A program made the translations under genes and the position numbers. Under the pieces are notes generated by a model. That model searched no databases and had not been told where the DNA came from. It worked only from the letters and a program-made list of their open reading frames with translations. Shown here piece by piece: positions 18,487 to 58,361 of a stretch of DNA of 64,000 bases. The stretch lies in assembly GCA_946699065.1 (NCBI GenBank), contig CAMPDV010000143.1:434001-498000 (forward strand), read 5' to 3'. This stretch comes from Loxodes magnus (Eukaryota; Ciliophora; Karyorelictea; Loxodida; Loxodidae). The stretch's first letter is position 1, and the number at the start of each line of letters is the position of its first letter.

Positions 18487-19881
18487 ATGTAAGCGTTACC
18501 AAAATGCTTAATCTGCTTAGAAGATTACAACTTAACTAATGCTCTTCCAACTGTCTTACCTTGTGGACATATTTACTGTGGTTTGTGTTTGAATACTCAG
18601 TACTGATTATAAGGCATAATGTAATGTCCTATTTGTTAAAAAGGATTCCATTTTAGATTTGATGATTTACCTTAAGAAAGTGATTTAATAAGAGTGATAT
18701 TTTAAAACTAATAATACATATAAAAGATTTAAGATGCTAGATAGAAATTAAAAGAGATAAGGAGGTAAATTATGGAAAAATCTAAAACCATTACAACCAA
18801 ATAATCAAACATTAGTAATACTCTCATAATACCACTAACTAATATCATCATCAATCATTAACCAACATTTATCTACCAAAAATAACACTCAAATATTATC
18901 TAATTCTACTAATCACTAAAACCAACTATACTCTAATATAACGAATAACCACCTACAATACTAAAGTCTAAATTAACTTACAATCTAATAAGATAAAAAC
19001 TATAATACAATAATAAGTAACCAAATAAGATTTAGACTAATTAACATAAACTAAGCTAGCACTTTATTTAATCTAACTATATTCACTTTTTTAATTGAAC
19101 AATTTAAAAATTAAGTTTATTTAATATTTAGACAGAGTAATTACGATAAGTCTAAGTTTAAACTAGTATTCCTGCTGACAGTAAAAGTATAGAATATTAA
19201 AATAAGTTATATTTAATAGGAGGATTAAACAGAAATTAAAATAAATGAATAAAAGAAACTTGGTAGTTTGATTATGAAGGTAATAGAATAAAACTTAGTG
19301 ATCTAAATGAGGGAAGAGGCGGCTTTGGAATAGCAGTTGCTTAAAAGTATCTTTATGTGGTTGGAGGAATTAGTGATAATAATCAAGGTTTATAATCAGT
19401 AGTAAAGTTACAGATAGAAGACTAAAGTAAATGATAAAACTGTTCTTAATTTCCATTTTAAATAGCAAGCTAAACTTTAGTAGTAGATAAAGATGAATAA
19501 AGTATTCATTCTTTTGGAGGGTTAAATTAGAAAGGATAAACTATAAAAGATATATGAAAATATAATATATAGAATGATAGATGGAGTAAGTAAAATTTGA
19601 GTCTTCCTGAGGCTGTTGCTGGACATATAGTTTCTTTAGAGCCTCTTGTCATATGTGGAGGTATGAAAAATGCATTTACGAAAGAATATTCAAGAAGAAT
19701 ATATAAAAGAAACAAAGAATAATGATAGTAAAGTTAAATTTTTAAAGATATTTTAGCTTTAACGGAGATGAAAATAAGAAAAAACTATGGATATGTTTTT
19801 GCTATAGAAAAACCAGGAGTTTCAATAATGAGGATTGATTTAGAAAAATTGAGTTATAGAAGTATTAAAAGTCAAAAATGA
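18487..19881 (+). CDS. RING-kelch protein, 464 aa (copy 1)
   Basis: ATG 18487 (MQALPKCLIC) to TGA 19879-19881. Residues 7-50 are a textbook C3HC4 RING: C7, C10, C26, H28, C31, C34, C47, C50, with the usual Trp at position 40 encoded by TGA. A Gln/Asn/Ile-rich linker follows (about 75-235). Residues 239-464 hold kelch repeats: LYLIGGL, LYVVGGI, IHSFGGL, DIWKYNIQNDRWSK, LVICGGM. Six TGA codons (residues 40, 204, 254, 316, 357, 413) are Trp, several at invariant kelch positions, and the last TGA ends the frame in both paralogues. The likely role is a RING ubiquitin ligase with a propeller that binds substrate. The paralogue at 42434-43828 has the same length with no indels, which shows purifying selection. 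The divergent LINE half upstream supplies no obvious promoter. Confidence 0.9.
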
Positions 19882-20470
19882 TAAATATAATAATAATATC
19901 TATATTATTAATATTATTTAAATATAATCTCATATGTAAAGAAGTAGTTTAAAGATCTATAATTAGGTAAATATTTTTTTCTATTTATTAAAATATATAA
20001 AGCATCTGAAATAAATAAAGAATCAAATTTTATCTAAACATCTTTAAAAATCTATTATTTAAATATTATCATTATTCAGATACAAACATACAGCTTATAA
20101 CATACTTATATTCAACACAGTCAAAAAAACTATCTTTAAATACATACTTATATTCAACACAGTCAAAAAAACTATCTTTAAATACATCCTTATATTCAAA
20201 TTATTAAAGTATTTCTTAGATTACTCTATTATTTATCTAATCAAATCAAATTATAATTAAGCTATACCTATATCTAAAAACTATCTAAGTCATCACTACT
20301 ATCTCATCAATTCAACATCTTCAAATTTAGAATACATTATTTCTTTAATCATTTAAATTAACTACTATATATACTTAAAAATGTCCTTCTATAGCTAATA
20401 ATAAAATCAAGACATTATAACTCCTATACTCTCGATAAAAACTCAATCATAATAATTTTTCGAGATTAAT
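19882..20470. repeat. AT-rich gap with a 42-bp tandem duplication
   Basis: From 20101 the unit CATACTTATATTCAACACAG and the following 22 bases occur twice, with a third partial copy to about 20195. The paralogous gap near 44050-44120 has the unit only once, so the duplication arose after the block was copied. Nothing else is recognised. Confidence 0.7.
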
Positions 20471-22114
20471 ATGATAGACTAATAAGATTAAAACAACATC
20501 GAAATCAAGTTTTTAGGAGGGATGTCTAAGGGTGAAAAAAAGCTAGGAAAATATGTCAAACTAATAAAATTAACAGAAAATAAAATTTTATAAAATAAGT
20601 AACTTTAAAAAATAAAGTAGAAAACTTCAACTAAGAATAGGAATAATTTATTTCAATTTTATATAAAGAGATATTTTAAAAATTACTACTCAGGCATAAT
20701 AAAATAATATGCCGCAATAATGGAACTATTCAGTACCGATAGAGAGAATTTGAATAATATATAGAAGTACGAAAAATACCAAATTAATTAATTCTATTTT
20801 TTTATCTGATTAATATAATTTGATAAATTCTCTAACATAGAAAATGATAATATTAATCTTTTGATATTTTAGCAAGAAGAGAAATAGTAATTAATATTCA
20901 AAAATAATAACTACTTAATTCGCTACTACAAAAGTTTAGTTCCAAAAGAAAAAAGTTAAAAGTCTTCGGAAATATAAAACAAACAGTTTTATATATAATA
21001 AAAGAAACAATATAACTTGATGGTAGAACAACTATGTATCTAGAATTATCAGAAGCCGCTTATCCAGAAAATATTACTACTTAACTGGAAGAAAAAAATT
21101 TATGAGTAAAGTTAAATTAATTGGCAATAAATGATGTGAAAACTTTCAAAAAATTAGATACAGTATTAAGTAATGAAGAAGATAAAAAGCAATAAAGTTA
21201 ATAATCAATTATGATTGAACATAAAAAAGTGGTAAAATATGTAACAAGAAATAACACAATAAAATAAAAGATACATAAATAAAAATAGAAAACCTAAAGA
21301 AATTATAAAGACGAGTAGCAAGCAAAAATTTGGATCCTAAAGCATAAAGATTGCTTAACTAATTATTTAAATTACACCTGAAATAGGGAAAAATTGATAA
21401 AATAATAAAAGATCATTTAACTTAATAAATTATTTAAAAAAATCATTTAAGCTACCTTAAATCTATGAAAAAGTTAAAGTTTAATATCATGAGGAAAAGG
21501 TGGCATTGTTAAAACCCATTGAACAAAATAAATTCCAACAAGTAACTAATTTGCTTCCACAATTAATAGATCCAATAACTTTCAATAATAAATAGAAAAA
21601 TAATATTGTGCCTACAACACTTGAGGAATAATGAATCCGTTTTTATGAAAGCCTAATTAAAAAAGAAACAATTTAAGTTTATAAGTATAGTATGAGATTT
21701 AATGCATATATACATAGTTTCTACCAAATAAACTAAATCCAGTAGGATAGTAGCTATTAGAATTAATTAAAACTATAATGCAATAATTCAGCATAAGATC
21801 CAACCTAGATTACTACAAAATAAAGTTTAAAACTATAAGCTGATAACTTAGTAAATATATTATAAATTATTAATAAAATGCATAATATTTAAATTTTTCC
21901 TTTAAATTATCTAAATTAGTCCTTATTAGTAACTAAAAACAATCAAATAATATACTAAATACGCTATTTATTACCATTATTCAAACAGAATATAATAGTA
22001 AATTGTATAATATATTACTATTAATATTTTACTCCAATATAATTCAATTAATATCAAAATATCATTCATAATTCATTTACATTTACTTATCTAATCCATT
22101 TTTCAAATTAATGA
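20471..22114 (+). CDS. unrecognised reading frame downstream of RING-kelch copy 1, up to 547 aa
   Basis: ATG 20471 (MIDQQDQNNIEIKFLGG) opens a frame that ends at TGA 22112-22114 if five internal TGA codons are Trp. The paralogous block conserves pieces of it in matching frame, for example MELFSTDRENLNNIQ here and MELLSTVRENLDNIQ at about 44660. The rest is Lys/Gln/Asn/Ile-rich. No domain is recognised. The paralogue is frameshifted, and the last third of this frame lies beyond the duplicated block, so the true end may be near 21545. It may be a decaying gene. Confidence 0.35.
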
Positions 22115-25295: not shown

Positions 25296-25306
25296 TAAAA
25301 GTAAAT

Positions 25307-26246: not shown

Positions 26247-26257
26247 TAAAAGTAAAT

Positions 26258-26774
26258 ATATTTTTAATTTCTTTCATTATATCATAGTAAATTTTTTGAA
26301 ACAATCAAATATTAAAATAATTTTATCTTTGAAAATAAAAAATTTTGATTTATCTACAATGCATCATAAATAATAGAAAATTGGTTATTAATACTAATAA
26401 ATTATTTTATTTTAAATAAGTATAAGAAATATCTCTTCATAGCAAAAAGTAGTTAAAATTAAACTGGAATATGAAATAAAATTTTATTTATAGTAAAAAG
26501 TTTTTAGATATAAATTAAATTGTATTTATGATTAATTAGTTTGATCAAAATAATTATAAATTTAAATACTTAGGTTTGAAAAATAAATTAATATGAAAGT
26601 AAAATTTTTATTTTTGATATTAAACAAGGATATTTGTTATTATAGTTTGAAATTAAAAATTATATCTAAGGTAAAATTTTAAGCTATTTTAATAATTTTA
26701 AAAATATTTATAATTAATAAAATATATATTTTTATTATATTTCATATTCAAATATTAAAAATTTTACTTTGAAA
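26258..26774. other. AT-rich spacer
   Basis: Very AT-rich, no recognisable gene or repeat. Confidence 0.4.
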
Positions 26775-27905
26775 AAAATTTAAACTATTAAACTAAACTA
26801 AAATAGTCTGGTGACATCTTTAATTGTTAGAATTACTTCCTTCAATTAAAGATGCTTTAGAATTATTAATAAGTTTTTCATCTCCCGCTTTCATCTTCAT
26901 CTTATACTTCAGCTTGATCATCTTAGTTATCAATTTTTTCCTTCTATTCTTCCACTTATTCTTTTAGCTCTTCTTATTATATCTTTTCTTCCTCGTTCTC
27001 TTCACTATTTTCTTGATTTTTTACTTCCTATTCCTTAGATTCAGGACTTTCCAATCATTCTTCTTCCATTTCGAATAATTCTAATCTCCTTTTGAGCAGC
27101 ATCCTGTGGAAAATTTTTATTTGTAAATCTATGTATTCTATCTTGTTTTTTGGGAATTAGTTGATATAATTTTAATCATAGGTTATTAATCTTCCTATAT
27201 CGCCTTATTCAATCTTTGTTATTAGCCATTTTCTTATATCTATGTAACAATTGCAATCTATAATATGTTGGAACTTGTCCAATTCTCCACAGATGCAATG
27301 AGGATTCTCGATAAGATAATGTCTGTCTTGAAGATCTTTCCGAAAATTGTAGCTTTAAGTTCTGAGTTTGTATATACTGATTATTTCTTTCTATATTATT
27401 TATTTAGTTTCGGATAAGTAATTTCTGGGAATTATCGTTAGTTACAAAATTATTCTATAAAAATCTTTGCAGTTGGCATACATTTAAGTCTTTACTAAGT
27501 TATTTTATAGAATTTTTGTTGAATCTAGTTCTTTACATATTTCGTAAAGGTAATTAAGCTACTATTATGTTCCTAATTATTAAAGTAAATTTCGTAGTAT
27601 TCAGATAATCTTGTTAATTAGTCTCTATATTAATATCCTTCCTATCAATTATTCATAAAGAGCTTCCCTAATGTTGATTATGGAAGGTTAATACTTTCTT
27701 ATCGTATTTTATAAAAAAAATCTAAAAAACCTCAAAGCCGTAATATCTTTAAATGGTATTCAGTTATAATCTATATAAAAGGACTCATTAAAAGTGTTTT
27801 CAGGTGCTTAGAAGGCTTTCCTTGCTATTAATCTCATACTTTTGTCAATTTTATTTAGTGTTCCAGTAGCTCCATTTTAGACTACTCAAGGTATTAATGT
27901 GAAAA
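26775..27905 (-). mobile_element. LINE 3' half (5'-truncated), minus strand
   Basis: Near-exact reverse-strand match to about 1650-2770 of the left-edge LINE: the C-terminal part after the RT, the Cys/His motif (near 27290), the acidic Gln-rich tail, the 12-bp hairpin (26815-26854) and the TTTTAGTTTAGTTTAA end. Similarity breaks off at about 27903, where G4 sequence begins in the same orientation, so this is either a truncated insertion or the 3' part of a chimera. Dead. Confidence 0.8.
26815..26854 (-). other. conserved LINE 3' hairpin, second copy
   Basis: Perfect 12-bp stem CATCTTTAATTG / CAATTAAAGATG, the equivalent of 2698-2737 with one base pair changed from G-U to A-U. Confidence 0.6.
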
Positions 27906-28757: not shown

Positions 28758-30909
28758 AGCTATTTTATTAATATAATAAAATTTAGTGATAGTGTTAATA
28801 TTTAAGCTCTAGATTATTAATAAGATACTTTAAACTAGATATCATATAATATACTTTTAAGTAACTTACTTTAGAATACTTATTTTACTATTTTCTTTTT
28901 ATAATTTATCATTTCCCTGCATATAGTCAAATAAAATATATCTTAACTAACTAAATCATAATAAGTTCCTATGTTTTTCATTACTAAATTGAAAAAGCTT
29001 TTATTAATAATTTAAGTTCTTATTAATCTAAAGAAAGGAGATTTATAAGAACAGTTAACTAATTAAAATCCTAATCAATGTAATCTTCTTAACATTACAG
29101 TACCTTATAGCATTCTTTGTGTATGTGGAATTCATTAATCATTTTTCGTCTCATATTTATCTTTTATCTCTCTGCAGAAATAATAAGTCGTTTCTAACAT
29201 CATTGGCTCTACTTCATTCATCTCACTTGAAATATATATTTAGCATTCTTAGTTCTATATTGGAATTACTCAATTGAGCAGATAGATAAATTATATGGTA
29301 GCTTAAAATATTTAGGTAAAATAATCTTAAAATTGAAGTTTAGCTAGCATGATTAGTACAAGTAATTGTTTCACATTTTAAGATATTAGTAACAGTAAAT
29401 TAAAAACCTAAGAATGATACTATTTGGAGCCTTAAATGTATTCTTTTATATAATAATAAGAAAAGATAAGAAATGTAAGCAGATCTGTTCTGAAATTATA
29501 TAAAAAAGATAGATAACGAAAATGCTTGTAGAGTGATATTAATATACTTAATTAAGAGAAGTTAGGTGAGAATCACCTGATCTGTAATTTTTCCACTTAA
29601 TTGAAGAAATAATTTACAAAATGACAAGTTAAGTGTATGTATTCTAACATCTGATTAAATAGATAAACTCAGTTTCAAAAAGCCTTTTACAATACAACTT
29701 TTCTAAAACTTAAAATAAATTATAATGATAGTTTCAGTTTAATAATCAATAATACTTACGATATTAAAACAATCTGAATAGCATCATTGAAAGTTAAAGA
29801 AGTATAAAATCATAAAGTAAACTTAGTGAATTTAAATAGCTGACTATTACAGAATTGATTATCATATAAATACTTAGGTATATTTATAATTATTTATATG
29901 CTAAAACTTTAGAATATTTCCTAACTTATTCAGAAGTATTATGCTAAATTAATTAGTCAAATAAACATCATTAATATCTATAAATTATGTAAATAATTAA
30001 AAGATATCCTTATGGGGATATAAATAGATGACTAAGCAATACTAGCTGTATAATAATAAAATTATTTAGTTTTAGTTAATTATTATAAATATTAGCTATT
30101 ATAAGCCTTAATTTAGTTATAGTCTATAATTACCATCATTATAATTAAGCTATTCCAGTATTAAGTAAAGCTAATTACTTTTCATTTTTTTAAGCGAAAT
30201 AAATAAATTAAGATTACCTACTTAGTCTTTTATTTAAAAGGTTTCAATAGGATAGTTACTTAGTAGATAGTAATTTAAAGATTAAGGAATTTAAGTTTGG
30301 TTTATCAGATAAAATATTTATATTAAATAGTAATCTACTATATTTATTGTATATTAGCAGGAAAGAGAATAATGAAGCATTATTAAAGTACAAGTTTATA
30401 AGGAAGGCTACTTTTATAATAAATGAAATTACTAAAAACTCTTAAAAACAAATAAATAGTAAAAATATTTGATTGATAAGTAAACTAAAGTAATAACTAT
30501 ACTAAATTATTAATATTAGTCAGAAATTAAAGGAACTAGCTTAAAAATTAGGGTAAAGGGGAATAAAGAAATAATAATTAAAGAAACAATAAAATAGTTA
30601 CATATACTAAATAGCTAATAGTTATAATTGTATAAATAAGCAAATATTTGATTATTAGTAACTATCTACTAGCAACAGTAAACTCTTTATTACTTCTATT
30701 ATAAATAATACTAATTATACATTAAAAGCAATAATACATTAATAAAAACTAAAGGTCTATAAGTACAAATAAAGAAGCTAAAGAGTAAAGTAAATAAATA
30801 AAAAGTAGAATAAAGGTATTAATTACTTAGAATCAAAAACTAATATAAGCATTATATTAGCAACTACTAAACTTAAATTAATATTTATTATTAGTTATCA
30901 TTATATAAA
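28758..30909. other. AT-rich region; one short protein-like frame
   Basis: Mostly featureless. On the minus strand from ATG 29221 a frame of about 46 codons looks like real protein (MNEVEPMMLETTYYFCREI, then IPHTQRML) before it loses protein-like composition near 29080. It may be a remnant of a gene I cannot name. No promoter or RNA gene is recognised before the TPR gene. Confidence 0.3.
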
Positions 30910-32608
30910 ATGTCTCAAGCTACTTAATATAACAGAATAGCATTAAAATTTATGAAGGAAGCTAATTATCATAAGGCTATCGAGTAATTTAATATAGTTA
31001 TCATGCTAGATCCAAAATATGCTGCTGCTCATACTTATAAAGGAGTTGTCCTGAAGATGCTAGGAAAATATGATGAAGCAATATAGAGCTACAATTTAGC
31101 TCTCAAACTAGATCTTAAAATGGTATCTGCTTATTTGAATAAAGGATTATTATTGAAACAAATAGGAAAATGTAACGAAGCCATATAGAACTATGATATA
31201 GCTCTCTAATTAGATGCTAATTTAGTGGCAGCTCACTATAACACAGGAACTTTGCTGGGATAATTAGGAAAGAACGTCGAGGCGATATAGAGTTTAAATG
31301 TAGCTACGAAGCTAGATCCTAGATTAGTAGATGCTCACTTTAATAAAGGAACGATTTTTATTAAGCTAGAAAAATACAATGAAGCCATTGAAAGTCTTAA
31401 TTAAGCCATCAAACTTAATCCCACTCTACCAGATCATTTCAAACTCAAAGACTTTTCTCTTTTTAAATTAGGAAATCATCTTGAAGCTATCGAATGCTTC
31501 AACTAAGTTATCTAACTAGATCCTAAGTACTCAAATGCTTTTTATGATAAAGAACTTTGTCTTTAAGCTTTAAAAAATGAATAAGATGCACTGGAATGCT
31601 TCAGCAAAGCAAGACAACTAAATCCTGAATTAAAAATTCCCTAAACAAAAATTAAAAATAAAGTAAACTAAGTAAAGAATAAAATAACAGAAGAAGAAAT
31701 AAGAAAGTTCCTATAGCAAATAGATAGTAGTTGTAAAATAAGAATATGGAAATATAGAGATTTGGTTCCTAACAATGAATTTTTAGCGGAATTGTAGAAA
31801 TTGGCTTGTGACTAATTAGGAACTACTTATCTGGCTTGTATCTAAGGATTCATGTATGAATTTAAAGTATTTAACTAATAGAATGATAAAATAATAGATT
31901 AGTTCTGATTTGAATGTAAAGAACTACTGCTAATAAATAGCTTAAGAGTTTAAAAACTTATAGGATTTGCTATCGATACTTAAGAACTCGCTTTTTTAAC
32001 TGATTTTTAGAATAAAGGAAGTTATTCTAAATTATTGAGACAAAGTAGTTATTCAAAACTGCCATTCTAGATACTATAAGAAACTTAAATTACTTAGTTA
32101 AATAACAGAAGGTTTGAAGGCTATTCACGCTAGAAACTTAATTCATAAAGAAATCAAATTTCTTAATATTCTGTTAGATGATTAAGATTTTCCTAAAATA
32201 CTAACTCTTGGATTATTTAATAAAGATAACTGATTAAGAGCAATAGAATAGAAAGATGAACATCAATGAATGGCTCCTGAATAATTTGAAAAGAAAGTGA
32301 GTAAAAAAAGTGATATTTGATCTTTAGGTTGTATAGGAGTAGAAATATTCAACGAAGAACTTCTTTATCCAGTTCTAGATTCTTAGTTAAAGTAAATAAT
32401 CTATATCGATAAAATGATACCTAGGTTTTAAAACGAAATATACCAAGAACCTTTATTAGTTGATCTATTCTACAGATGTTTAGCTTTCGACGAGAATAAA
32501 AGACCAGACATAGATACTTTTATAAGTTAGTTAGAACTTATAATATTAAAGTGAAATCCACATGCAGATATAAGTCATTAACCTACATCATTATTATAAG
32601 AGAAGTGA
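30910..32608 (+). pseudogene. TPR protein with C-terminal pseudokinase domain (one frameshift)
   Basis: ATG 30910 (MSQATQYNRIALKFM). Residues 5-245 are six to seven tetratricopeptide repeats (AIEQFNIVIMLDPKYAAAHT, YDEAIQSYNLALKLD, CNEAIQNYDIAL and so on). From about residue 280 a protein-kinase fold follows: an N-lobe with EFKVF at the lysine strand, then GLKAIHARNLIHKEIKFLNI, QWMAPEQF, DIWSLGCI and DENKRPDI. In the last three motifs TGA encodes the invariant Trp (32267-32269 and 32318-32320). The catalytic loop reads HKE where active kinases have HRD, and TLGL replaces DFG, so it should not phosphorylate. A one-base frame change lies at about 32070-32100, so the copy may be dead or the base miscalled. 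The stop is TGA at 32552 or 32606. TPR-kinase fusions are plausible signalling scaffolds. Confidence 0.75.
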
Positions 32609-32934
32609 AAAAGTAGAGGTAAAAACTAAAAAATGTTAGCTTAAAATTTTATTATTAAGTCTTATTTTACTTATTTATTTATACTTAACTAATCTTTATT
32701 TATTCAAAAGATATTATTGATATAAGCCTACAGAACATTACTTTAATATCAAAATGCTTTAAGTATTAGAAATTTACAAATCAGTTAATTTGCTAGAAAC
32801 TAAGAAATAATTTTTGATTATATAATTAAAGGATCAGTTTAAGTCTTAAACAAGACTTTATAAGCAAAATTATTCAATTTTGTATTTTAAAAATATTTGA
32901 TTAAATGATTTATTAATTACTATTTTTTGCTATT

Positions 32935-33137
32935 ATTATGCATATAAGGATTATAAGGATGTTCATTATAAAATTATAATTAACTATATTTTAAATTTAC
33001 TTATTCATTTTCCTTAAATTTGGTTTAAAACCTTTTTATTTATTATTTATTAAGGCGCTATTAGTCTAGTGGTTAGGATAACTGCCTTCCAAGCAGTTGA
33101 CCCGGGTTCGAGTCCCGGATAGCGCACTTTTGATTAT
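32935..33137. repeat. duplicated segment around tRNA-Gly, copy 1
   Basis: About 200 bp including roughly 115 bp upstream of the tRNA recurs at about 33975-34168 with few changes. The tRNA gene itself is identical in both. Confidence 0.8.
33055..33126 (+). tRNA. tRNA-Gly(UCC), copy 1
   Basis: 72-nt cloverleaf: acceptor GCGCTAT pairs with ATAGCGC, the discriminator is A, the anticodon stem ACTGC/GCAGT encloses the loop CTTCCAA with anticodon TCC, and the T arm is CCGGGTTCGAGTCCCGG. Intact internal A and B boxes; a CTTTT run right after it is the likely Pol III terminator. It decodes GGA and, by wobble, GGG. Identical to the copy at 34085. Confidence 0.95.
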
Positions 33138-33439
33138 AAAATATTTAATTTATTTGTAAACTATTTTACTACCTTTATGCTTAAAAGATTTTACTTTTCT
33201 TTTATCATTTAACAAATCAGATAAAAAAGTAATTTTTTATCTTAAAACTTATTTAATTTACTAAAATTTTAATAAGGATTAATTTATTTGCAAACTTTTT
33301 TAAGCTAAAATTTTATGATATTTATAAGATGCTTCAATAATTTCAAACTAGCTTTTAAAATTTTTAATCAATTATAAAATAAACTTGTTTTATCTTAATC
33401 ATATACTATTATCAATCCTTTAATTTTAATTTTAATTTA

Positions 33440-33660
33440 GGCTATAAACTAAAATAATTTTTTGACGTATTTAATTGTAAGAATTTTCTTTAATTATGGA
33501 TATTAATAAATGTTTTTTAAATATCTTGTTTATCTCATCATTTAAATTATTATTCTAATCTTAAATTCATTTTCGCTTTCTTATTACTTTCTACATTTCT
33601 AGTAATTATTATTTTCTTTACATTAGCTTCTTTTTTAATGGATTATTTCTCTTCTTATAA
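33440..33660 (-). mobile_element. diverged LINE 3'-end fragment between the tRNA genes
   Basis: On the minus strand it resembles the LINE 3' end at 26.8 kb: TTTTAGTTTA near 33450, then a decayed form of the hairpin arms (TTTAATTGTAAGAATTTTC), an ATTAATAAATG match and an acidic coding tail. It is old and short. Confidence 0.45.
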
Positions 33661-33847
33661 ATAATTTATATTTTTATATATTTGATAGATAAAAATGTAT
33701 TTAGGTATTTATAATATAAATAAAAGTTTATAGATGATATATAAATTTATATAACTATATATTTATTTTATTTAACTATATGCTATTTAAAATATTTATT
33801 TAGCTTATTAATCATTTATAAATGTATGATGCTATTTATTTTAACCA

Positions 33848-33919
33848 GGCTGCTTAGCATAGTGGTAGTGCGTTTGATTTGTAATCAAAAGGTCGAGGGT
33901 TCGATCCCCTCAGTAGCCT
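33848..33919 (+). tRNA. tRNA-Thr(UGU)
   Basis: 72-nt cloverleaf: acceptor GGCTGCT with AGTAGCC, D arm GCATAGTGGTAGTGC, anticodon stem TTTGA/TCAAA with loop TTTGTAA (anticodon TGT), T arm GAGGGTTCGATCCCCTC, discriminator T, then a run of T as Pol III terminator. No intron. Lies between the two tRNA-Gly genes on the same strand. Confidence 0.95.
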
Positions 33920-33974
33920 TTTTTGTTACTTTGAATGAATTGAATGATTTATAAATTAGTATTTTATAATAATA

Positions 33975-34168
33975 TTATACATATAAGCATATTCATTATA
34001 ATATTATAATTAACTATACTTTAAATTTACTTATTCATTTTCCTTAAATTTGGTTTAAAACCTTTTTATTTATTATTTATTAAGGCGCTATTAGTCTAGT
34101 GGTTAGGATAACTGCCTTCCAAGCAGTTGACCCGGGTTCGAGTCCCGGATAGCGCACTTTTGATTATA
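33975..34168. repeat. duplicated segment around tRNA-Gly, copy 2
   Basis: Second copy of the segment at 32935-33137. The upstream part has a few substitutions, but the block from about 34010 onwards is nearly identical. Confidence 0.8.
34085..34156 (+). tRNA. tRNA-Gly(UCC), copy 2
   Basis: Identical in sequence and flanking terminator to the copy at 33055. About 90 bp further downstream lies a SINE-like insertion. Confidence 0.95.
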
Positions 34169-34245
34169 AAGTAATAAAAATGAGAATATTGATATAATAG
34201 TATGGTATTAAACCATTATAATCTACATAATTAAGATTATTAATT

Positions 34246-34564
34246 TATAAGATTTAATTGAAAAGATGGTAGGAGCTGAGGATGACCTTCGTGACAACAC
34301 TTTCTGGTTTTATGGCTAAGAACAAGTTCCTTTCCTGTTGCTGAGAAAGTCCCTGGTCAGAGGCATTTTCTGAAGGGAACACTGTCTTTGAGATTATCCG
34401 CTCTTGGTAGGGGCTTGAAGCCTTGGTGCTCATAGCGATGGAGCTCCCTAGCAGCTGTGCCTGGAGCACAACAGGATATCCCCGTTATTCCATAAAAAGA
34501 GAGCGTCGGGTCGTGCAATCGGTAAGGAGTTTCCGGTCCAAAAACTTTTTTAGTTTAAATTAAA
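34246..34564 (+). mobile_element. SINE-like GC-rich retroposon, copy 1
   Basis: About 300 bp, roughly half G+C in an AT-rich setting. Starts AATTGAAAAGATGG, ends with a hairpin near 34525-34540, GGTCCAAAAACTTTTTTAGTT and an AT tail. Flanked by a 17-bp direct repeat AATTAAGATTATTAATT (34229-34245 and 34565-34581). Nearly identical copies lie at 58031-58352 and 59539-59851. Direct-repeat flanks of different sequence and length and an AT-repeat tail point to retroposition and not to a DNA transposon. A short reading frame on the complementary strand exists but is not conserved in length. Confidence 0.75.
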
Positions 34565-34744
34565 AATTAAGATTATTAATTGATCATACTTACTAAATAT
34601 TAAATGCTTTTAAAGTATTTACTGTTACTATTTTAACTTTATTATTATTTCACTCTAATAAAGCTAATATTAAAAAAGCTAATAAATCAATTCTTTATTA
34701 TACTTTATATTCAAATTTAAAAATATCTAAATATTTGTGATAAA

Positions 34745-36838: not shown

Positions 36839-36839
36839 T

Positions 36840-39800
36840 TAAGAGGCAGATGGAGAGACCTAGCTTAGATTCTGCACAATAAAACTTGACGATATACTCT
36901 TTACTTCATGCTACATGCAAGATAACAACAAAACAACATATATGAAAGATGAAGTCTATGACATTCTCAATGAAATATCTAATGCATTTCCCATAATGCT
37001 CACGTCTTTCTTGGTGACATTAATGAACTATTAGAAGACTTTGGTAGTAATCCTCTAAGCAACTACGATAATACATCCAGATTAAAATAGTTTATTCAAC
37101 AGAATGATTTGTAGATTATCAATGACCCTATAACAAATACATTCATTCATAGAGCTAATCAATAGTACTATTGTAATAATTACATTTTGGCAACCAAACA
37201 CTTGAACATTTATTAATTCAACGATTTCTAAACTCCCTATGACAAACTAATCACTGATCATATTCCTATATCTGTGACTCTTGCTTACAATGCAACCACA
37301 AATGTTCCAAGATAACAACAATTACTCTATAAGATTGATAAGCTACTTGTCCCAATGGACAGATAAAATTACTAAAATCAATTTTAAGGTAGTTTTTCTG
37401 TTTTTTGACTGTAGATACAGACAACTTAGACTCATAATATAGTTTCATCATGAACTTACTTTAGAATAGTGCAATGAACCAATAGGAGTAGTTAAACAAA
37501 ATACTAATTACAACAAACTGCCTCAGGATATCACTTTGAAGTATATAGCTGCTAAAAGAGCAAATTAGGAGTATAAGAAATTGATGCTTATACAAGGAAG
37601 AATTAACTAAACGTAACTGAAGCTCATTTTATAGCCAGAAAACTAAAAAATATATTTATGCGTTCTTATTGAAAATGGAGAAAGCTTCAGGCTAAAGGTA
37701 AATTTCTCAAACTAAATGGAAATCAACTAACAATGTTCTGTCAGGCGAAAAAGATAATAAACCCTATAATAAGGAATTGAATGAATTTGAATGAAGAACT
37801 TAGTAACTCCTTTATTGATAACTGAGAAACCTTTGTGTTAAACAAACATTAAAACGTAACATAGGAACAACTTAATTTTAGTAACGGTAAATAAATCTTA
37901 TTTATAGAAGTCCTTAACTTATCAATTACCCATATTCTCACTTATAAAATTTTGAACTTTTCAAATTTTAAGAAATTCAAGAAATTATTCAACATAATCC
38001 AAATGGCAAGCCAGCTGGACCAGATGGAATAAAAGGTGAACTCATCAAGTATGCTGGAGAAGAGTTGCAATAAATAATTCACTGTTTTATCAATAATATG
38101 ATGCGATTTTAATAAATTCCATAAAAACTGAATACCTCCATTATCATTCCTATTTTCAAGAAAGGTGGTAAGAGTGATTGGAAAAACTAAAGACCATTTT
38201 CCCTTATGAATACTATATTGAAGATCTACGAAAAGGCTTTAACAGAAAGGACTTACAAAACTCTTTAAGAATGAAACCTCATACATCCTGCATAAATGGG
38301 ATTTCTCAAGAAGAGACAAGCAGTCCACTAAATATGATAATTGTAGCAGATAATTGACCTCTATTAGAGTGAAGGGAAAGGCTAAACAAGGATACTTCTA
38401 CTCTTATTGATGTTGAGAAGATGTTTGATAGTAGTGAGAGAAGAACACTTTTTCAACATCTTAGGAGAATAAAACTACCTCTGGGATTGATACTGGCACT
38501 AGAGTCTTTCTAAAGTTACCTGAATTCCTCTTTTATAATCGACGGGTAAACAACTCAACGACTTCATTACAACAATGGAGTTATGCAAGGGAGTTCACAT
38601 GGTCCTGTACTCTCCCTCCTATATTATGATATAGTAATCAGACATCTATAGGAAAGAAATACACATCTAGGTATCAATCAACACAACATGAACTTTGTAT
38701 GCAGAGCGTGGGTAGATGACCTTATACTCCTTTCTTGTTCTGCTTAATGGATGTAATAACTAAGAGATTAATGTAACAGAGTTTTCAGTGAATTTTTCTG
38801 TAAATAAACACTAGTAAATGTGAAGCAATACAATTTGTTAAAAAAAGAAGATCTAAAAAAATCAAATTAAACTTGAAACTGGAAGGTTAACATATCAAAT
38901 AGAAGAATCAAGTGACATACCTAGGAGTTATAATACAAGAAAATGGTCTTTTGATCAATTACTGTAAATAGAGAATTTAAACATATTTAGAATCGGTAAA
39001 GAAATGCATTTATACTCTCAGTCGATTCAAGAATGTTACTCCTGACACTTCAAAATGCTTTGTCGCATGTTTACGCTGCCTAAGGCTGAATGCGGTGGAG
39101 AATTGGTTCTTTGAACTATAATGAGAGTCTCATAGTCTATGAAAGAGAAGATAAATAAAAGTATGCGTATAATTGTGAGGGAGGTTTTATAGTCGCTTAT
39201 CTCTGTCTTTAATGAGTCCTGTTACATAGACTTTAACTGGCTCCCTTTCGAGCATATTATGGCTAGTCGCTTTTTCCGTTTCTGCTTTAAAATACAAAAA
39301 GAAGCTAGGAATTATCCGGAATCCGATATAGGAAGACTCTTTGAATGCAATTGAAACTAAAAATCTTTGTACTTCTAGTAAGTTAAAAGGATGTTTTAGT
39401 ATTACGGAATTAACAATGACGACCAAACCATGATTTCTAATTAAATTTCTTTTGTGAATCTTATTGAAGAAAAATAAGAAACAAATTCTATTAAGAAGCA
39501 ACTATACGATATAGAGACATGCCCACTGCACAGATATTTAGAGAGTAACTTGGAGGATTTTTGAAATTTCCTGAAATAAATTACACTAAACTAAACAAAG
39601 AATATAAAAAAGAAATCATCTCAATCTTTAAATTACGAACTAATTCTTACAGTTTTCAATATGACTTACATATGCGTCATTATTCTGTAAAAAATTACCT
39701 CTGTAAATGTGGTGGAAAAGAAACGTTTAGACATATCTTCGAACGTGTCTACTATTAGGACATAGTTAGAAATATCTCTGATAAATTTCCTGGAAAAAAC

Positions 39801-40040
39801 TTGGAAAAATTAGTAACTTACGATTAACTCTACACAAACTAGCAGTTCACTTCTCATAAGTAAATGGATGTAGAACTTTAGATAAAAATTTTTCATAAGA
39901 ATCTACGAAAAAAAAAAATTGAAATTGTAGAACAAAACACAGATAATTGATTGGAGCCTAAAGAAGGACAATAAGAAAGCACAAGAATCGACGGGGAAAA
40001 GTTGGAAGATGGAATGAACGATGCTTGAACTTTTGAACAT
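36840..40040 (+). mobile_element. LINE with AP-endonuclease C-terminus and reverse transcriptase
   Basis: The longest LINE copy in the window. The end of an AP-endonuclease domain is visible: FLGDINELLEDFGSN near 37010-37050 and ITDHIPISV near 37255-37280. A linker follows, then the RT with GKPAGPDGIKGEL (38005), IIIPIFKKGG (38142), QGSSHGPVL (38588) and an intact-looking polymerase box AWVDDLILL (38706-38735). The C-terminal zinc motif is LCKCGGKETFRH (39700-39735). It is collinear with the left-edge LINE from 37500 on. The 5' end is truncated inside the endonuclease, and there are several frame changes, so it is dead. It belongs with endonuclease-bearing LINEs (I/Jockey-like organisation); the clade is not decided. 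Confidence 0.85.
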
Positions 40041-40124
40041 AATTAAAATGAAGTATCTAATTTATATCAGTAACTTCATTTCATTAACATTTTTATTAAA
40101 GTGATTTCTTCTTCTATCCTTTTA

Positions 40125-42240
40125 ATTTATGGACTTTTTCGATTCTATTAAACAATTTTTATCTTTATATTGCTTGCTAATGATCTCCTATTGATCTCTA
40201 TTGATTGAATTTAATGTTGATAATTTTAGGCGTGATATATTGATCCGTTGAGAAGTATTCTACTTTGAATTTTCCTTTCCCTTATGTTGATGAAGGTTGT
40301 ATCTTGATTTGGATCTTTACATTCTAAAAGATAATCTTTCATCAAGCCAAATAAATATTAGCCTGCATTATTCTGCTCATACGGTAAAAATTGAGGAATA
40401 TGCACGTTTAAATCCCCTAAAATTTATAATCCTTTACTACTTGCTACTTTCATAAAAGGATATTAATTAATCAGAGTCAGATGTTATAGTGCTATATACG
40501 TTTATCAATGCTAGCTTATCATTAAGTGTTAAACCTATTAATCTTCCTCTCTAATATATTTCTGCTTGATTGAGATCCACTATATCCAATACTTTGGTTC
40601 TGATGGTAATTCCATCTTTTATATAAATGCTACTCCTTTGCAATGTTTTTGGCTCAATTTTATTATTGCTCTAAATCGTATATATAAGGCATTTCAGCAG
40701 TTTTATCCACAATTATTTCTTAAATCGTCATAATTTCTATCTTCTTTTCACATATAAAATTGTTTAATTCTTCCTTGTTTTATCTGATTCATCTGACATT
40801 TGCTGTGTCTATGTCTAATTTTTTTATTTTATTATATTAGTATTTCCTTGTACTTCCTATTTTTCTTGATCCTCCTACCCTACATTTTTAGCTTCCTCTT
40901 CTTTAATAGCGAGAAAACCAAATTGTTCTAATGTTTATTATTTTTCCTGTACATAAATCTTCAATTTTTTTACTCGATACTATTCCTATATATATTTTTC
41001 TATCTTTTACCGAGATGGCGTTGTGTTTATGCATGCTTCCTTCCTGTCACTACTTTCTAGTTGTTTCAGTTTTTTGACATATTTCCTATTTTACTTTCTT
41101 TTTTTGTGACATGTATCGTTTCGCCTCAGTTTTTATTTATTTAATTTTGTAATTAATTATCTATTAAAGTCGATCGCTTTTAAAGAAACTTTAGTATATC
41201 TTAAATTTAATATTTTTGCTAGAAGTTCAAAGTGGTATTTTATATGAAGGTCAATCCTCTTCAGTTTTCTTTACTTTCTTTTCCTTCGCTATCTATTTCT
41301 CTTTATAGTAAGGTATTTTATTTCTGATTTTCGAAGGTATCAACCTGGTTTTTACTTCCTTAGCATTTTTAATTGCTTCCTTTATAGCTTTTTTTTTAAG
41401 TATTAATTTGTGCTATGCTCTTATTTGTTACAGTTCATACATTTTCTAATTGATGGATGACTCAAGTAAGTGATTTTACCTCCTTCGTTTAACTTATCTA
41501 GTATACTTTCTCAATCTCTGATCTCCTTAAGATCTAAATAATTTTTCATTTTCCCATTGGCTCACGTTGTACCTTTTACGGTTCTGATCTCTGTACATAC
41601 TATTTTCGTACTGCTATAGATAGATTTCTACCTGGCCCAAACTTGAATACATGTTAAGTGTTCAATAAATCGGAAAGCTCTTAATGTTAGAATTCCTTTA
41701 TGTTTCTTTGTTTTGTTGGTATTACAAGATATCTAATACTTCCATGTTTAATTATTTGCGAATTTTGTGAGTATTTACTTATTTTTGAATCATATAATAA
41801 TTATTCCTGTCTGAAAGAATTTCACATTTTCAATATTTTTACCATATTCTTAAACCAGATATCTGAGAAATGTTTGAAAATTTTCATTTCTTGCATTTCT
41901 GCTGAACTGAGTCTTTGGCTGTAGCAATTTTATTCTAAAAATTTACTGAAATAGGTAACTCCTACACTTTAGCAACTTTGAGTTGCATATTCTCGTCCTC
42001 ATTTTATGGAATTTGCTCATTCTTTTCTTCTTCCATGATTTGCAAAGAGCTGTTATCTGATTTGATGTTCTGAAATACCTACTTTTTTTGATAGATTACT
42101 TAATTTTAACATTTCTGTCCCTTATTTTTAATTTATTACTTCTAGTAATTTAAATATTTTACGAAAGAGTCGTTTTTCTTAAAAATGTCTTCAAAGATCT
42201 GATTAAGTTGTAAAGTTCTTTCATGCCTTTGTTAAATTTA
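40125..42240 (-). mobile_element. 5' half of a LINE: CCHC and AP endonuclease (paralogous copy)
   Basis: Minus strand: knuckle CMNCNKQEHSTN near 41430, a Lys-rich linker (IPYYKEKQIAKEKKVKK), then an endonuclease-like domain with GITIRTKVLDIVDL, GRLIGLTLNDKLALINVYS and a GDLNVHIPQFLP (GDxN motif) block near 40400. Ends at the duplication border with no RT. It lacks the Z insert present in copy 1 and so gives its empty site. Frame changes are present. Confidence 0.65.
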
Positions 42241-42433
42241 CCTATCAGTCTTGACTTGAGATTAGTTACATGTGGAATATATGATTGCTACTTTATATAA
42301 GAGCTTAATATTATTGTTTCTTTAATGTATGTAAATAAAGTAATAATGTAGTTTTAGATATAATTGACAGTATTTTTGATGGTAACTGTTATAAATTAGC
42401 TTTATAGCTTTTGTAGTCTAAATAATAATAAAA

Positions 42434-43828
42434 ATGTAAGCGTTACCAAAATGCTTAATCTGCTTAGAAGATTACAACTTAACTAATGCTCTTCCAACTT
42501 TCTTACCTTGTGGACATATTTACTGTGGTTTGTGTTTGAATACTCAGTACTGATTATAAGGCATAATGTAATGTCCTATTTGTTAAAAAGGATTCCATTT
42601 TAGATTTGATGATTTACCTTAAGAAAGTGATTTAATAAGAGTGATATTTTAAAACTAATAATACATATAAAAGATTTAAGATGCTAGATAGAAATTAAAA
42701 GAGATAAGGAGGTAAATTATGGAAAAATCTAAAACCATTACAACCAAATAATCAAACATTAGTAATACTCTCATAGTACCACTAACTAATATCATCATCA
42801 ATCATTAACCAACATTTATCTACCAAAAATAACACTCAAATATTATCTAATTCTACTAATCACTAAAACCAACTATACTCTAGTATAACGAATAACCACC
42901 TACAATACTAAACTCTAAATTAACTTACAATCTAATAAGATACAAACTATAATACAATACTAAGTAACCAAATAAGATTTAGACTAATTAACATAAACTA
43001 AGCTAGCAATTTATATAATCTAACTATATTCACTTTTTTAATTTAGATATTTAAAAATTAAGTTTATTTAATATTTAAACAGAGTAATTACGATAAATCT
43101 AAGTTTAAACTAGTATTCCTTTTGAAAGTAAAAGTATAGAATATTAAAATAAGTTATATTTAATTGGAGGATTAAACAGAAATTAAAATAAATGAATAAA
43201 AGAAACTTGGTAGTTTGATTATGAAGGCATTAGAATAAAACTTAGTGATCTAAATGAGGGAAGAGGTGACTTTGGAATAGCCGCTGCTTAAAAATAACTT
43301 TATGTGGTTGGAGGATTAACTGATATAGATCAAGTTTTATAATAAGTAGAAAAGTTAAAGATAGGAAACTAAAATAAATGATAAAACTGCTCTTAGTTTC
43401 CATTTAAAATAGCTTGCTAAACTTTAGTAGTAGATAAAGATGAATAAAATATTTATTCTTTTGGAGGGTTAAATTAGAAAACATAAACTTTAAAAGATAT
43501 ATGAAAGTATAACATATAGAATGATAGATGGAATAAGTAAAATTTGAGTCTTCCTGAAGCTCTTGTTTATCCTATAGTTTGTTTAGAGCCTTTTATCATA
43601 TTTGGAGGTATGAAAAATATGTTTATGAAAGAATTTTCAAGAAGAATATATAAAAGAAATAAAGAATAATGACAATAAAGCTAAATTTTTAAAGATGTTT
43701 TAGCTTTAACGGAGATGAAAATAAGAAATAACTATGGATATGTTTTTGCTTAAGAATACCAAAGAGTTTCAATAATGAGGATTGATTTAGAAGGGATGAG
43801 TTATAGAAGTATTAAAAGTAATAACTGA
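42434..43828 (+). CDS. RING-kelch protein, 464 aa (copy 2)
   Basis: ATG 42434 to TGA 43826-43828, exactly as long as the copy at 18487 with no insertion or deletion in 1395 bases. All eight RING ligands are kept, as are the kelch GG pairs. Five of the six Trp-encoding TGA codons remain; the sixth (residue 204, in the linker) is TTA. The first 420 bases of the gene differ at about three positions and the remaining 975 at several dozen, a sharp step that suggests recent gene conversion over the RING half. Same inferred role: RING E3 with a kelch propeller for substrate. Confidence 0.9.
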
Positions 43829-44407
43829 TAAACATAATAATAATATTTATATTATTAATAGTATTTATAATAAATATAGTTTTATACGTAATGAAGTAGC
43901 TTAAAGATCTATAATTAGGTAAATTTACTACTTATTAAATGGTCAATCTACTAAATACTTTAATAAAGGATATAAATAAAGTATCTAAATTTATCTAAAC
44001 ATCTTTAAAAATCTATTATTCAAATACTATCATTATATAGATACAAACATTAAGCTTATAACATACCAAAAACTATTTAACACAGTCAAAAAAACTATTT
44101 TTAAATACATTCTTATATTCAAATTATACAAGTACTACTTAGATTACTCTATTATTTATCTAATCAAATCATAACTATAATCTAATTATCATTAAGCTAT
44201 ACCTATATCTAAATACTAATTAAGTCAACACTATCATCATCAATTCAACATCTTCAAATCTAAAATACATTATTTCCTTAATATTATTTAAACTAACTAC
44301 TATATATACTTAAAAAATGTATCTTCTATACCCAATAATTTAATCAAGCCATTTTAACACGTATACTCTCGATAAAAACTTAAATATAATAACTTTTCGA
44401 GATTAAT

Positions 44408-45430
44408 ATGATAGATCATTAAACTATACTCAGTTACATCCAAATAAAGTTTTTAGAAGGGATGACTATTGGTGAGAAAAAGCAAGAAAAATAAGATGAA
44501 ATAATAAAATTAACAAAAAATAAAATATTTTAATATGCAATTTTTTGAAGAAAATAAAGAGAATAAAATAGAAAACTTCTTCTAAGAAAAAGGAATAATC
44601 TATCGATTATAGAGAGACATTTTAACCGTTACAACTCAAGCATAGCAAAAATAAAATAACGTTTGCATTAATGGAACTCTTGAGTACTGTTAGAGAGAAT
44701 TTGGATAATATATAGATTAAGTACGAATATCAGCAACTGGACTTATTCTAACTGTTTTATTTGATTAAGAATAAATTAATAAATTCTATAACATAAAAAA
44801 TAATAATATTAAACTTTTTATATTTTAACAAAAAAAAAAACAAATTAATATTACAATAATATAAACTACCTAATTCACTTTTATATAAAAAAAAGCTTAG
44901 TTCCAACTGAAAAATAATTAAAAGCCTTCACAAAAATAAAACAAAAATTTTTACTTATGTGTAAAGTTAAGTCATTTGGCAATATGATGATGTGTAAACT
45001 ATCAAAAAATTAGACACGATACTATGAAGAAGATAAAAAAGCAAATAAAATTAATAATCAATTGGGTTTAAAAATCAAAAAAAGTAGTAAAATATGTAAC
45101 AAGAAATATAAATTGAAATAAAGGATAAATAAATATAAATAAGATACCTAAAGAAATGCTAAATAAAGGATAAGAAATTATAAAGATTAGTAGCAAAATA
45201 TTTAATTCTAAAGAATAAAAATTGCTTAAATAATTATTTAATTTGCACCAGAGATAGATAGTAACTGATAGAATAATGAAAGATCATTTAAATGAATAAA
45301 CGCTGAGATAAAATCACTTAAATAACCTAGATTTATGGAAAAAACCAAAGTTTAGCATTATAGAATAAAAAAATACTATTGTCAAAAACCCATTGAACAA
45401 AATAAGTTCCAAAAAGTAACTGTTATATTT
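44408..45430 (+). pseudogene. decayed paralogue of the reading frame at 20471
   Basis: ATG 44408 (MIDHQTILSYIQIKFLEGM) matches the start at 20471, but the conserved segment MELLSTVRENLDNIQ lies in a shifted frame and further indels follow. It ends at the duplication border. Function unknown. Confidence 0.35.
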
Positions 45431-46340: not shown

Positions 46341-46344
46341 CACA

Positions 46345-47930: not shown

Positions 47931-47934
47931 AAAA

Positions 47935-49558: not shown

Positions 49559-49573
49559 ATAACGAATACTTAA

Positions 49574-50402: not shown

Positions 50403-50417
50403 ATAACGAATACTTAA

Positions 50418-52290
50418 ATAACAATCTTTATAATATGAATAAAATAGATTAATGAGTAATAAATAATGACTATTTCTAATTAGAAAATGAATATGAAAGT
50501 ATTTTAATTTAATTTCTTGATAAGATCTTTTAGACATAAATAAATGCTTATTATTTTTAAAATCTATATTAAACAAAATATTTTAAATATTATTAAGTTT
50601 ATGAATTTTAGTATCTTAAATTAATAAATACTATATTACTGTGTAGTTATTAAAGGAATCCTTAAATTAAAAATTATGATTTAAGTGCCTAATAATTTCA
50701 ATAGAATAAAAATAGCTCATTATTAAGATTATTTATGAAGTTGCGTATTATTCGATTTATGGTCTTAGAAAAAACATTGTATTTTATAATGTTATATATT
50801 ATTTATTTTTATATTAAAATATTTTAAATTTTGTATAGATATAATAGTAATAGTTTTTAACTTACACTTAGTATATTTAATAAATAAAAAAGCTTTTGTT
50901 TTAATGTCTTAGACATAATGAATATTATATTAATTTGCTAATTAATTTCATTTTGCTAATATGCATTATTATTAAAATAAAATCATTTTTATTATTATTT
51001 AATATAAAGATACTTAAGTTAAAATTTGTATTGCTTATATTCCAAATATTTAAATAGTTTGGTACCAAATGTTTGTTATATGATAAACAATAACTTTTTA
51101 TTCTTAAAACTTTAAATTTTAAGATTATTTTAGTAAAAATTAAATAATTAAGCAATTTAATCTTATATTCACTTATTATTTATGCCTATAAATAAATTAT
51201 TTATTCTTTTATCAAAATATGCTCTTTTAATTGGCTTAATCACTAATATTTTTAATATTTATCAATCGTTTTATTAAATTTAATTTTTACTAAAGAAATA
51301 AAAATGACTTGAAAAATTAAATTAATAATTTTTAAGTTAAATATGTTTAAACAATTTATTTTAGTTATTTGATAAATAAGGATTATATTATAAACAATTA
51401 GTTGCTCTTTCTGTTTGTGATTCTTTTATTTGATATTTATCATCAATTTCTTATTTTATTTTTCTACCAACTATTTTTAATTTATTACTTAATTAAAATT
51501 TAATAATCAAATTATTTTATACTTGTTCACTAAAGGAGGATAACTGAATATACTAAAAAATCAAATTTTACTTTTAAGTATAATGGAGAACTATATAAAT
51601 GATTTTTACTAAATTCCCATATTATGATTATATTTGGCTTATTAACTTATTATAATTCTATATTATACCTACGTTCTTTTAGATTTATACTTGCTTTATT
51701 TACATTTATTTGCATTTATAGTTTAATTTTTTTAAAGATTCGAATATATTCAAACTTTTATTCTTTTTTTCCTTTTATAGATATTAAAAAAATTAAATTA
51801 ATTTTATCTAAAAATCTTTGGTAGTATAAATCGCTGAGCAAAAGATGGTTTAAGTAACTTTTGAATTTTATTAATAATGATTATAATGTTATCCGAATTA
51901 TAAAAAAAATAAAAAAATTGGTTTTAAATAAAATTTATTCCATTGATACTATATTTAAAAAATAAATAAAAATGTAAACAATTCCGTCCTTATTCACTAA
52001 ATACTAAAAATTAAATTAAGAAACAACCTTTAAAAATTTCTATAAATATACAAAGACATAATCTAAATTAATAAGCTTAAAATCTTAATATCCTTTTATA
52101 CATAATACCAAACAATATTAAGACCTTTAAAATAACTAAGAAACATAAACATGTAATATATATACCTTAAATAAAAAATAAAAATAACTTTTAAACTGTA
52201 TAAAAAACTAATATAAAATATATAATAGATTTATCTACTTTTAATAATTAAAAATTAAATCGTCAAATTTAATTAGTCTTAAATAAATTT
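50418..52290. other. AT-rich region without recognisable features
   Basis: Almost 1.9 kb of very AT-rich DNA. A hydrophobic open frame near 51624-51824 looks like AT-rich noise. Nothing else is recognised. Confidence 0.4.
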
Positions 52291-52302
52291 ATTCCTCAAC
52301 TC

Positions 52303-53122
52303 TTAACTCGCAATCCTCCACTTCTTCACAATATTGTCATCCGCTCCAGATATTAACCATTTACTGTCACTACTCAATGCTATAGATTCAATTTATTATG
52401 TATGCCCTTAAAGAGTCTATATAAACATTCCGCATTAAAATTCCATATCTTGATTAAGTGGTCATAAGAGCCAGAAAATATAGCACTTGGATCAGAATTT
52501 ACTGAATACTTGATACACCTTTCGTGTGACCTTGAAGATTACGAACTAGCTAACCAGTAGAGAAGTCTCATATCTTAATTGATTTATCAGAAGAACTCGA
52601 TATTATATACTTATTGTCCAAAGTGAAAATTACCGATAAAACATAACTTGAATGACCAGAAAGAGTTTGATTGAGCTGGCCAGTCTGGAAATCCCAAATA
52701 TTGATCGTTTTATCATTAGATGCTGATATGATTCATTTCTAGTCAAAGGAGATAACTACCGATCTAACTCAATTAGTATGCCCAGCCAAATTTTTATGGA
52801 GTATACCAGTCTGAAAATTTCAGATATTGATCGTTGTATCTTCAGATGCTGATATGATTCATTTCTAGTCAGAGGAGATAACTACCGATCAAATGATAGA
52901 AGTGTGTGCCTTCAAAGTTCTTAGGAGGGTATCAGTCTGGAAATTCCAGATCTTTATAGAATTTTCAGGGTATCCTGAACTAGATGCAATTCAATTCAGG
53001 TAATTTGATATGGCTACCGAGTATACATATGAGGAGTGAACAGTAATGACTTAGTCTAAAAATATTAAAAAATAACTTAACTTTTATCGTAGTTGATCTT
53101 ATTAACAAGTCTTTAGAAGCAT
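52303..53122 (-). pseudogene. WD40-repeat protein, possibly with a short intron; frame breaks in the 3' half
   Basis: Seven WD-type units are visible on the minus strand. Examples are SGYPENSIKIWNFQT, KWIISASEDTTINIWNF, KWIISASNDKTINIWDF, YIISSSSDKSIKIWDFSTG, IFSGSYDHLIKIWNF and KWLISGADDNIVKKW. TGA and TGG alternate at the same Trp of successive repeats, direct evidence for TGA as Trp. Two single-base frame changes near 52500 and 52430 interrupt an otherwise good sequence, so it may be a recent pseudogene or hold base errors. The start is taken as ATG 53122, joined through a possible 21-base intron at 53056-53076. The end is uncertain; the last recognisable residues are WRIAS before a TAA at 52305-52303. 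WD40 propellers are binding platforms; the partner is unknown. Confidence 0.7.
53056..53076 (-). other. candidate 21-nt intron in the WD40 gene
   Basis: GTTATTTTTTAATATTTTTAG has GT and AG ends, is almost pure AT, and its removal joins an ATG-started frame (MLLKTCQQDQLRQKLN) to the first WD repeat (QVITVHSSYVYSVA). This is inference from one gene. Confidence 0.35.
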
Positions 53123-58021: not shown

Positions 58022-58030
58022 AAAGTATTT

Positions 58031-58352: not shown

Positions 58353-58361
58353 AAAGTATTT

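Follow-up and report, generated by a model that had tools for sequence, protein, structure and literature searches.

The use of UGA as both sense and stop in karyorelict ciliates was, besides the papers cited below, reportedly also published in 2022 by Seah et al. in Peer Community Journal. In this code (translation table 27; Parduczia and Loxodes; PMC4967479, PMC11441545), UAA and UAG (together UAR) are read as glutamine, and UGA is tryptophan inside genes and stop at their ends. The dual meaning of UGA was published in 2016 (PMC4967479, in its accessible part) and 2024 (PMC11441545). The 2016 report covers the codes of Parduczia and Condylostoma; its ribosome profiling and mass spectrometry concern, in the accessible part, Condylostoma magnum. 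In Loxodes magnus, the 3' untranslated region (UTR) has 18.6% guanine-cytosine (GC) content, UGA and UAA are depleted over the ~20 codons before the stop, and RVT_1 domains and tandem repeats are abundant; Loxodes introns have a mode of 17 bp, with 93% at most 25, and heterotrich introns measure 15-16 nt (PMC11441545). A tRNA-Trp with a 4-bp anticodon stem is described for Loxodes in the accessible part of PMC13092985; under table 27, such a tRNA-Trp(CCA) would be expected together with a matching eRF1. Here, we analyzed a stretch of 64,000 nucleotides (contig CAMPDV010000143.1, positions 434,001 to 498,000; "the window"), in which TGA occupies conserved tryptophan positions and most likely also ends genes.

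The window has a GC content of ~25%, and no open reading frames (ORFs) of at least 150 codons were listed when it was read under table 11 or table 4. When TAA and TAG were translated as Gln and TGA as Trp, Pfam detected RING-kelch (two copies), kinase, TPR, WD40, B-box, and reverse-transcriptase domains. See Table 1 for coordinates. The Pfam input comprised regions picked by a coding scan and by eye, covering part of the six-frame window; the scan, based on codon log-odds, gave coding regions and strand, not frame. We put at roughly 87% the probability that the window comes from the nucleus of a karyorelict ciliate (or of a very close relative in code), probably a Loxodes-like one, with UAR as Gln and UGA as Trp or stop by position. 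Under such a code, UAA and UAG would be read as glutamine, a UGA far from the mRNA 3' end as tryptophan, and a UGA followed closely by a short, AT-rich 3' UTR as stop. We propose this explanation because UGA stands at conserved Trp positions, the RING-kelch frame is free of indels across its internal UGAs, and composition shifts after the last UGA. A karyorelict-type ambiguous code, which a preliminary description of this DNA had already proposed, is supported as the best account of the domains, of frame conservation between paralogs, and of genome features (AT-rich DNA, LINE relics, and tandem repeats) that agree with the published description of L. magnus. The main observation behind that proposal stood up, and its details were confirmed in part. 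The code itself is known and described, and the window is a fresh instance of it rather than a new code. Independently and from sequence alone, it confirms that the same genes use UGA as sense and, most likely, as stop, and the indel comparison between paralogs needs no RNA.

Translation of TGA as Trp inside genes is well supported by domain scores. The bit scores for TGA taken as W, X, C, R, or F, respectively, were 75.3, 63.0, 62.6, 62.3, and 70.7 for Pkinase (PF00069); 77.9, 55.2, 54.6, 73.9, and 56.4 for kelch (PF24681); 33.9, 30.9, 27.3, 32.5, and 31.4 for zf-RING_2; and 130.8, 107.5, 107.3, 114.2, and 122.7 for WD40 (PF00400), where G and Y were also tried and Y came second at 127.9. The gain of W over X was 12 to 23 bits in PF00069, PF24681, and PF00400. 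The individual codons agree with this reading. As previously noted, RING residue 40 and the W of kelch DIWKYN are TGA in both RING-kelch copies, and a further kelch motif, "SKW," has a TGA that falls on the kelch W when aligned to a designed protein of solved structure. The kinase TGAs in WMAPE and DIWSLG are W-aligned in all five printed alignments to solved kinases (four PAK and one CDKL2). Along the minus-strand WD40 gene, the conserved Trp of six repeats is encoded by TGG, TGA, TGG, TGA, TGG, and TGG, which bears out the mixture of codons claimed for equivalent repeat positions. By our reading of the printed alignment, TGA is aligned with W of 2ymu at three of the six TGAs in the aligned part.

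The preliminary description went too far elsewhere. It listed the LRR motif DISWN and the CCHC knuckles as invariant Trp positions, and the LRR and CCHC consensus has no invariant Trp at these places. Three-frame scans of the CCHC regions (24.0-26.4 kb, plus strand; 46.2-50.5 kb, minus strand) matched no Pfam family at E 0.01. Its interval of 18487-53122 leaves out the LRR and both TRIM genes on which it drew. In-frame TGA amounts to 27 of 2,505 codons (1.08%) vs 11 TGG, in a small set that is biased to repeat proteins and counts both RING-kelch copies. This is higher than in Parduczia, where UGA makes up 0.120% of codons according to the accessible part of PMC4967479. The other two sense frames of the same stretches contain 1.6% and 3.6% TGA. 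Because TGA is rarer in frame than in these frames, its mere presence is uninformative, and it is the positions that inform.

For UAA and UAG, the RVT_1 score was 82.0 bits as Q, 75.8 as E, 72.9 as K, 70.0 as X, and 69.0 as Y. The glutamine reading of both codons, as in table 27, is supported by RVT_1; TPR and WD40 do not discriminate. The nonstop code of Blastocrithidia, as given in the accessible part of PMC12153298, likewise has UGA as Trp and a stop codon of dual meaning. There, however, UAR is Glu and UAA is the stop, whereas here RVT_1 favours Q over E by 6.2 bits and TPR does not.

The RING-kelch pair lies within a duplication whose flanks allow the frame to be compared with its surroundings. 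Internal TGA codons 40, 254, 316, 357, and 413 are common to both copies, copy 1 alone has a further one at codon 204, and each copy has TGA again at codon 465, 52 codons after the last internal one. Over the frame (1,395 nt including this TGA), the copies differ by 87 mismatches and no indels, compared to 361 mismatches and 49 indel events in the flanks (16913-18376 and 19919-20991; Fisher P 8.7e-5). The second half of the frame alone differs from the flanks with P 4.3e-4. Indels reappear 38 nt past the last TGA. The pair also contains a low-divergence part (~2%) at 18377-19197, with its partner at 42.3-43.1 kb, flanked by sequence that is 14-16% diverged. The first half of the two copies appears to have been homogenised recently, as after gene conversion.

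TGA is most likely the stop at gene ends as well, judging from three assigned genes (RING-kelch copies 1 and 2 and the TRIM-like gene B), two of which are recent paralogs. The GC content of the 60 nt after their terminal TGAs is 0.08, 0.08, and 0.17, vs 0.18-0.42 after 27 internal TGAs; the candidate terminal TGAs of the kinase (32552 and 32606) were counted with neither set. Over their last 20 codons, the three genes contain no TAA, TAG, or TGA, where 6.7 of 60 would be expected from the in-frame frequency (P ~0.009 with the RING-kelch copies taken as one). This expectation is hand arithmetic and counts TAG, although L. magnus lacks UAG depletion. UGA and UAA are depleted over the ~20 codons before the stop in 3/3 assigned genes, as under table 27. 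The AT-rich DNA after the stop and the TAA- and TGA-free last codons of the three genes are shared with table 27 systems, as a probable short intron (below) would be, and the LINE-rich surroundings with Loxodes. We also built a gene-finding hidden Markov model (HMM). During training it drifted to GC-rich sequence, and it placed the RING-kelch regions in a different frame. We drew no evidence from the gene ends it gave, although the end of TRIM B was first seen with this composition-aware model.

The two TRIM-like genes, A and B, are the sole B-box matches in the scanned regions, and we took them to be the two TRIM-like genes described earlier as ending at TGA. They are 36% identical, a shared TGA (5827 in A) stands at an aligned Trp, and the alignment continues through and past it. 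Gene B most likely does end at TGA, 110 codons after its last internal one. The stated distance of at least 50 codons from last internal TGA to stop holds for gene B and for the RING-kelch copies. Gene A does not bear this out: its last internal TGA, 4612, lies inside a C-terminal ubiquitin-like domain. A Rad60-SLD match (E 5.7e-4, below gathering score) runs across this codon, and the segment past it, scored alone, gave no Pfam match. Among PDB sequences, the domain weakly matches a designed ubiquitin (E 0.021). A single-sequence AlphaFold model shows a strand-strand-helix-strand order (mean pLDDT [predicted local distance difference test] 69.4; four of five models below 50), and a Foldseek search with it returned ubiquitin and SUMO matches (best E 4.6e-4, probability 1.00). 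By sequence match and model, the domain is predicted to span TGA 4612, so TRIM A does not end there. In a naive reading, then, a TGA taken as stop may sit inside a domain.

At the TPR-kinase locus, the frame changes between the TPR and kinase parts near 32021-32048. GT-AG introns of 19, 25, or 28 nt would join the two frames, and none of 15-16 nt would (lengths 15-33 tried). The frame change is best explained by such a short intron. The two parts are probably one gene, which requires an intron of one of these three lengths.

Several observations weigh against a karyorelict-type code. In some models, W is not the best reading of TGA: Tyr outscores it in PF25172 (128.8 vs 93.4) and PF24814 (101.3 vs 85.3, with even X at 89.9), R does so in zf-C3HC4 (26.3 vs 24.7) and F marginally in Kelch_4 (50.0 vs 49.7), and TGA 4612 in the ubiquitin-like domain scores lower as W than as X (20.1 vs 21.8). 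PF25173 scores W, Y, and F nearly alike (180.4, 180.9, and 179.9). Likewise, Glu is slightly above Gln for TAR in TPR_1 (141.4 vs 135.0) and PF25173 (182.8 vs 180.4). The GC contrast after terminal TGAs is partly circular for TRIM B, given how its end was first seen. The kinase has two candidate terminal TGAs, 32552 and 32606, 18 codons apart, and neither fits throughout: GC over the next 60 nt is 0.28 and 0.17, respectively, and an end at 32606 would break the codon depletion, with TGA at -18 and TAA at -9 and -3. Between the RING-kelch copies, conservation of the TGA sites is not significant (1 changed, 3.0 expected, P 0.17), there is no TGA/TGG exchange, and the first half is 2.4% diverged, with just 1.8% over the 110 nt upstream. 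Substitutions in this pair are close to neutral (dN/dS, the nonsynonymous to synonymous ratio, 0.75), and the nonsynonymous fraction of 0.753 is near the 0.787 +/- 0.042 simulated under random placement (P 0.215). Such near-neutrality would fit decayed copies read under table 6, with TGA as stop and the internal TGAs as true stops, and so would the many duplicated blocks across the window and the frame changes in the LINE relics and the WD40 gene. In the latter, the frame changes twice, ~90 nt apart, between about 52510 and 52420, and no stop was identified in the gene; decay, assembly error, and recoding are candidates, and the gene may be decayed or misassembled. Introns were rejected as the cause, since by our reading the candidates would delete conserved repeat residues. 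Pseudogenes would not, however, be expected to carry TGA on conserved Trp positions with W scoring best in the main models, to keep a RING-kelch frame without an indel amid 49, or to show third-position bias between WD40 repeats (36 vs 23 and 20, P 0.016), and TRIM A and B align beyond their shared TGA. We consider wholesale decay extremely unlikely.

If TGA were always Trp and stop were encoded otherwise, as in a Blepharisma-like or fully reassigned code, the good support for internal Trp and the indirect nature of the stop evidence would both be accommodated. A Blepharisma-like form is opposed by the lack of ORFs of at least 150 amino acids with TAA/TAG stops (table 4), and any form by the return of indels and the fall of GC to 0.08 past the last RING-kelch TGA; such a code is barely credible here. 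A Condylostoma-type code (table 28) is also unlikely. In C. magnum, the accessible part of PMC4967479 indicates that all 64 codons can be sense, as may hold here, with closeness to the mRNA end setting the stop; UAA and UAG are stops there too. Because the stop evidence comes from three genes, two of them paralogs, TAA could still act as an additional stop of this type. Each RING-kelch copy has a TAA immediately after its terminal TGA, which counts against TGA as the only stop. So does TRIM A, which has no ordinary in-frame TGA stop (the next in-frame TGA past the domain is 3619), yet a TAA stands few codons past its ubiquitin-like domain. On the other side, no TAA or TAG in the window could be established as the end of a gene, the fitting TPR-kinase introns of 19, 25, and 28 nt contrast with the 15-16 nt of heterotrichs (PMC11441545), and the abundance of LINEs fits Loxodes.

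Table 1. Features of the window; positions count from its first nucleotide, and TGA positions are those of internal codons read as Trp unless given as terminal.
Feature	Position	Strand	Details
RING-kelch copy 1	18487..19881	+	464 codons; TGA 18604, 19096, 19246, 19432, 19555, 19723; terminal TGA 19879-19881
RING-kelch copy 2	42434..43828	+	TGA 42551, 43193, 43379, 43502, 43670; terminal TGA 43826-43828
4.2-kb duplication around RING-kelch	16913..20991	+	partner 40823-44953; 84% identical
WD40 repeats	52296..53086	-	TGA 52993, 52891, 52861, 52822, 52771, 52735, 52570
WD-site Trp codons	52948, 52822, 52696, 52570, 52445, 52320	-	TGG, TGA, TGG, TGA, TGG, TGG
TRIM-like gene B (B-box)	14506..15270	-	TGA 15216, 14838; terminal TGA 14508-14506
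TRIM-like gene A (B-box, coiled coil, C-terminal ubiquitin-like domain)	4430..6244	-	TGA 5827, 5383, 4612
Intron-like array	3680..4467	-	22 consecutive GT..AG units (GT[A/G]A...TAG) of 24-36 nt, directly behind the TRIM A ubiquitin-like domain
TPR repeats, then protein kinase domain	30652..32608	+	Pfam; TGA 31906, 32231, 32267 (WMAPE), 32318 (DIWSLG)
LRR	near 7 kb		translated with TAR=Gln, TGA=Trp
LINE relic	1..2700	+	Pfam RVT_1 under TAR=Q, TGA=W
Frameshifted LINE relic	36915..39900	+	RVT_1 37500-39303; Exo_endo_phos_2 36950-37330, below gathering score
tRNA-Gly(TCC) x2, tRNA-Thr(TGT) between them	32900-34173		tRNA-Gly copies in a 91% duplicated block

The frame of TRIM A runs on into an array of intron-like units. 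All but one of the 21 gaps between units measure exactly 3 nt, with a search expression that permitted 0-6 nt, and 18 of the 22 units resemble copies of a 39-bp repeat. Mean diversity over 35 aligned unit columns is 0.13, with 6 of them reaching the lowest spacer value, and the three spacer columns have diversities of 0.45, 0.66, and 0.71 (random, 0.69). Five non-overlapping runs of at least four such units occur in the window, all inside the array; 50 first-order resamples contained none, although for a tandem repeat such resamples are not a fair comparison. Between 4465 and 3664, TGA begins in none of the minus-strand frames, and an out-of-frame TGA at 4466 adjoins the domain. Conceivably, though it is a long shot, TRIM A would have no contiguous stop, with 22 tandem introns and 3-nt micro-exons, and its TGA would be created only by splicing, T and GA coming from successive micro-exons. 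The frame through the putative micro-exons reads IRW-NGKQKYEVYIE-TGA. The array would then explain the missing stop, and splicing would, if this were true, be coupled to termination in a code that already makes stop a matter of context. A possible mechanism would be the gain of introns through tandem duplication, the subject of PMC4974935 in potato. No tandem intron array of this kind appeared among the titles listed in the literature searched. The plain alternative is that a small indel or assembly error removed the stop from the frame, as the out-of-frame TGA directly behind the domain would suggest.

Comparisons between paralogous proteins in all frames, made for a table of TGA/TGG exchanges, were too noisy, and only the WD40 repeats, the RING-kelch pair, and the TRIM pair were kept. 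A repeat in the window supplied two 23-mers for exact searches, one against viral contigs and the other against genome contigs; neither matched any contig. Therefore, no relative was at hand for comparison. Rfam, at gathering threshold, found the three tRNAs in Table 1 and nothing else, with no tRNA-Trp among them. The LINE relic at 36915..39900 gave no match in longer frames and was seen in shorter ones. Several LINE relics (RVT_1 and Exo_endo_phos_2) are located at 1656-2777, 15630-16378, 26773-27898, and 36915-39900, and one pair is 97% identical. Finally, a repeat of ~330 bp, which we label SINE-like, is present in three copies that are 90-95% identical (34255-34578, 58029-58365, and 59540-59865) and contains a GC-rich box within AT-rich DNA.

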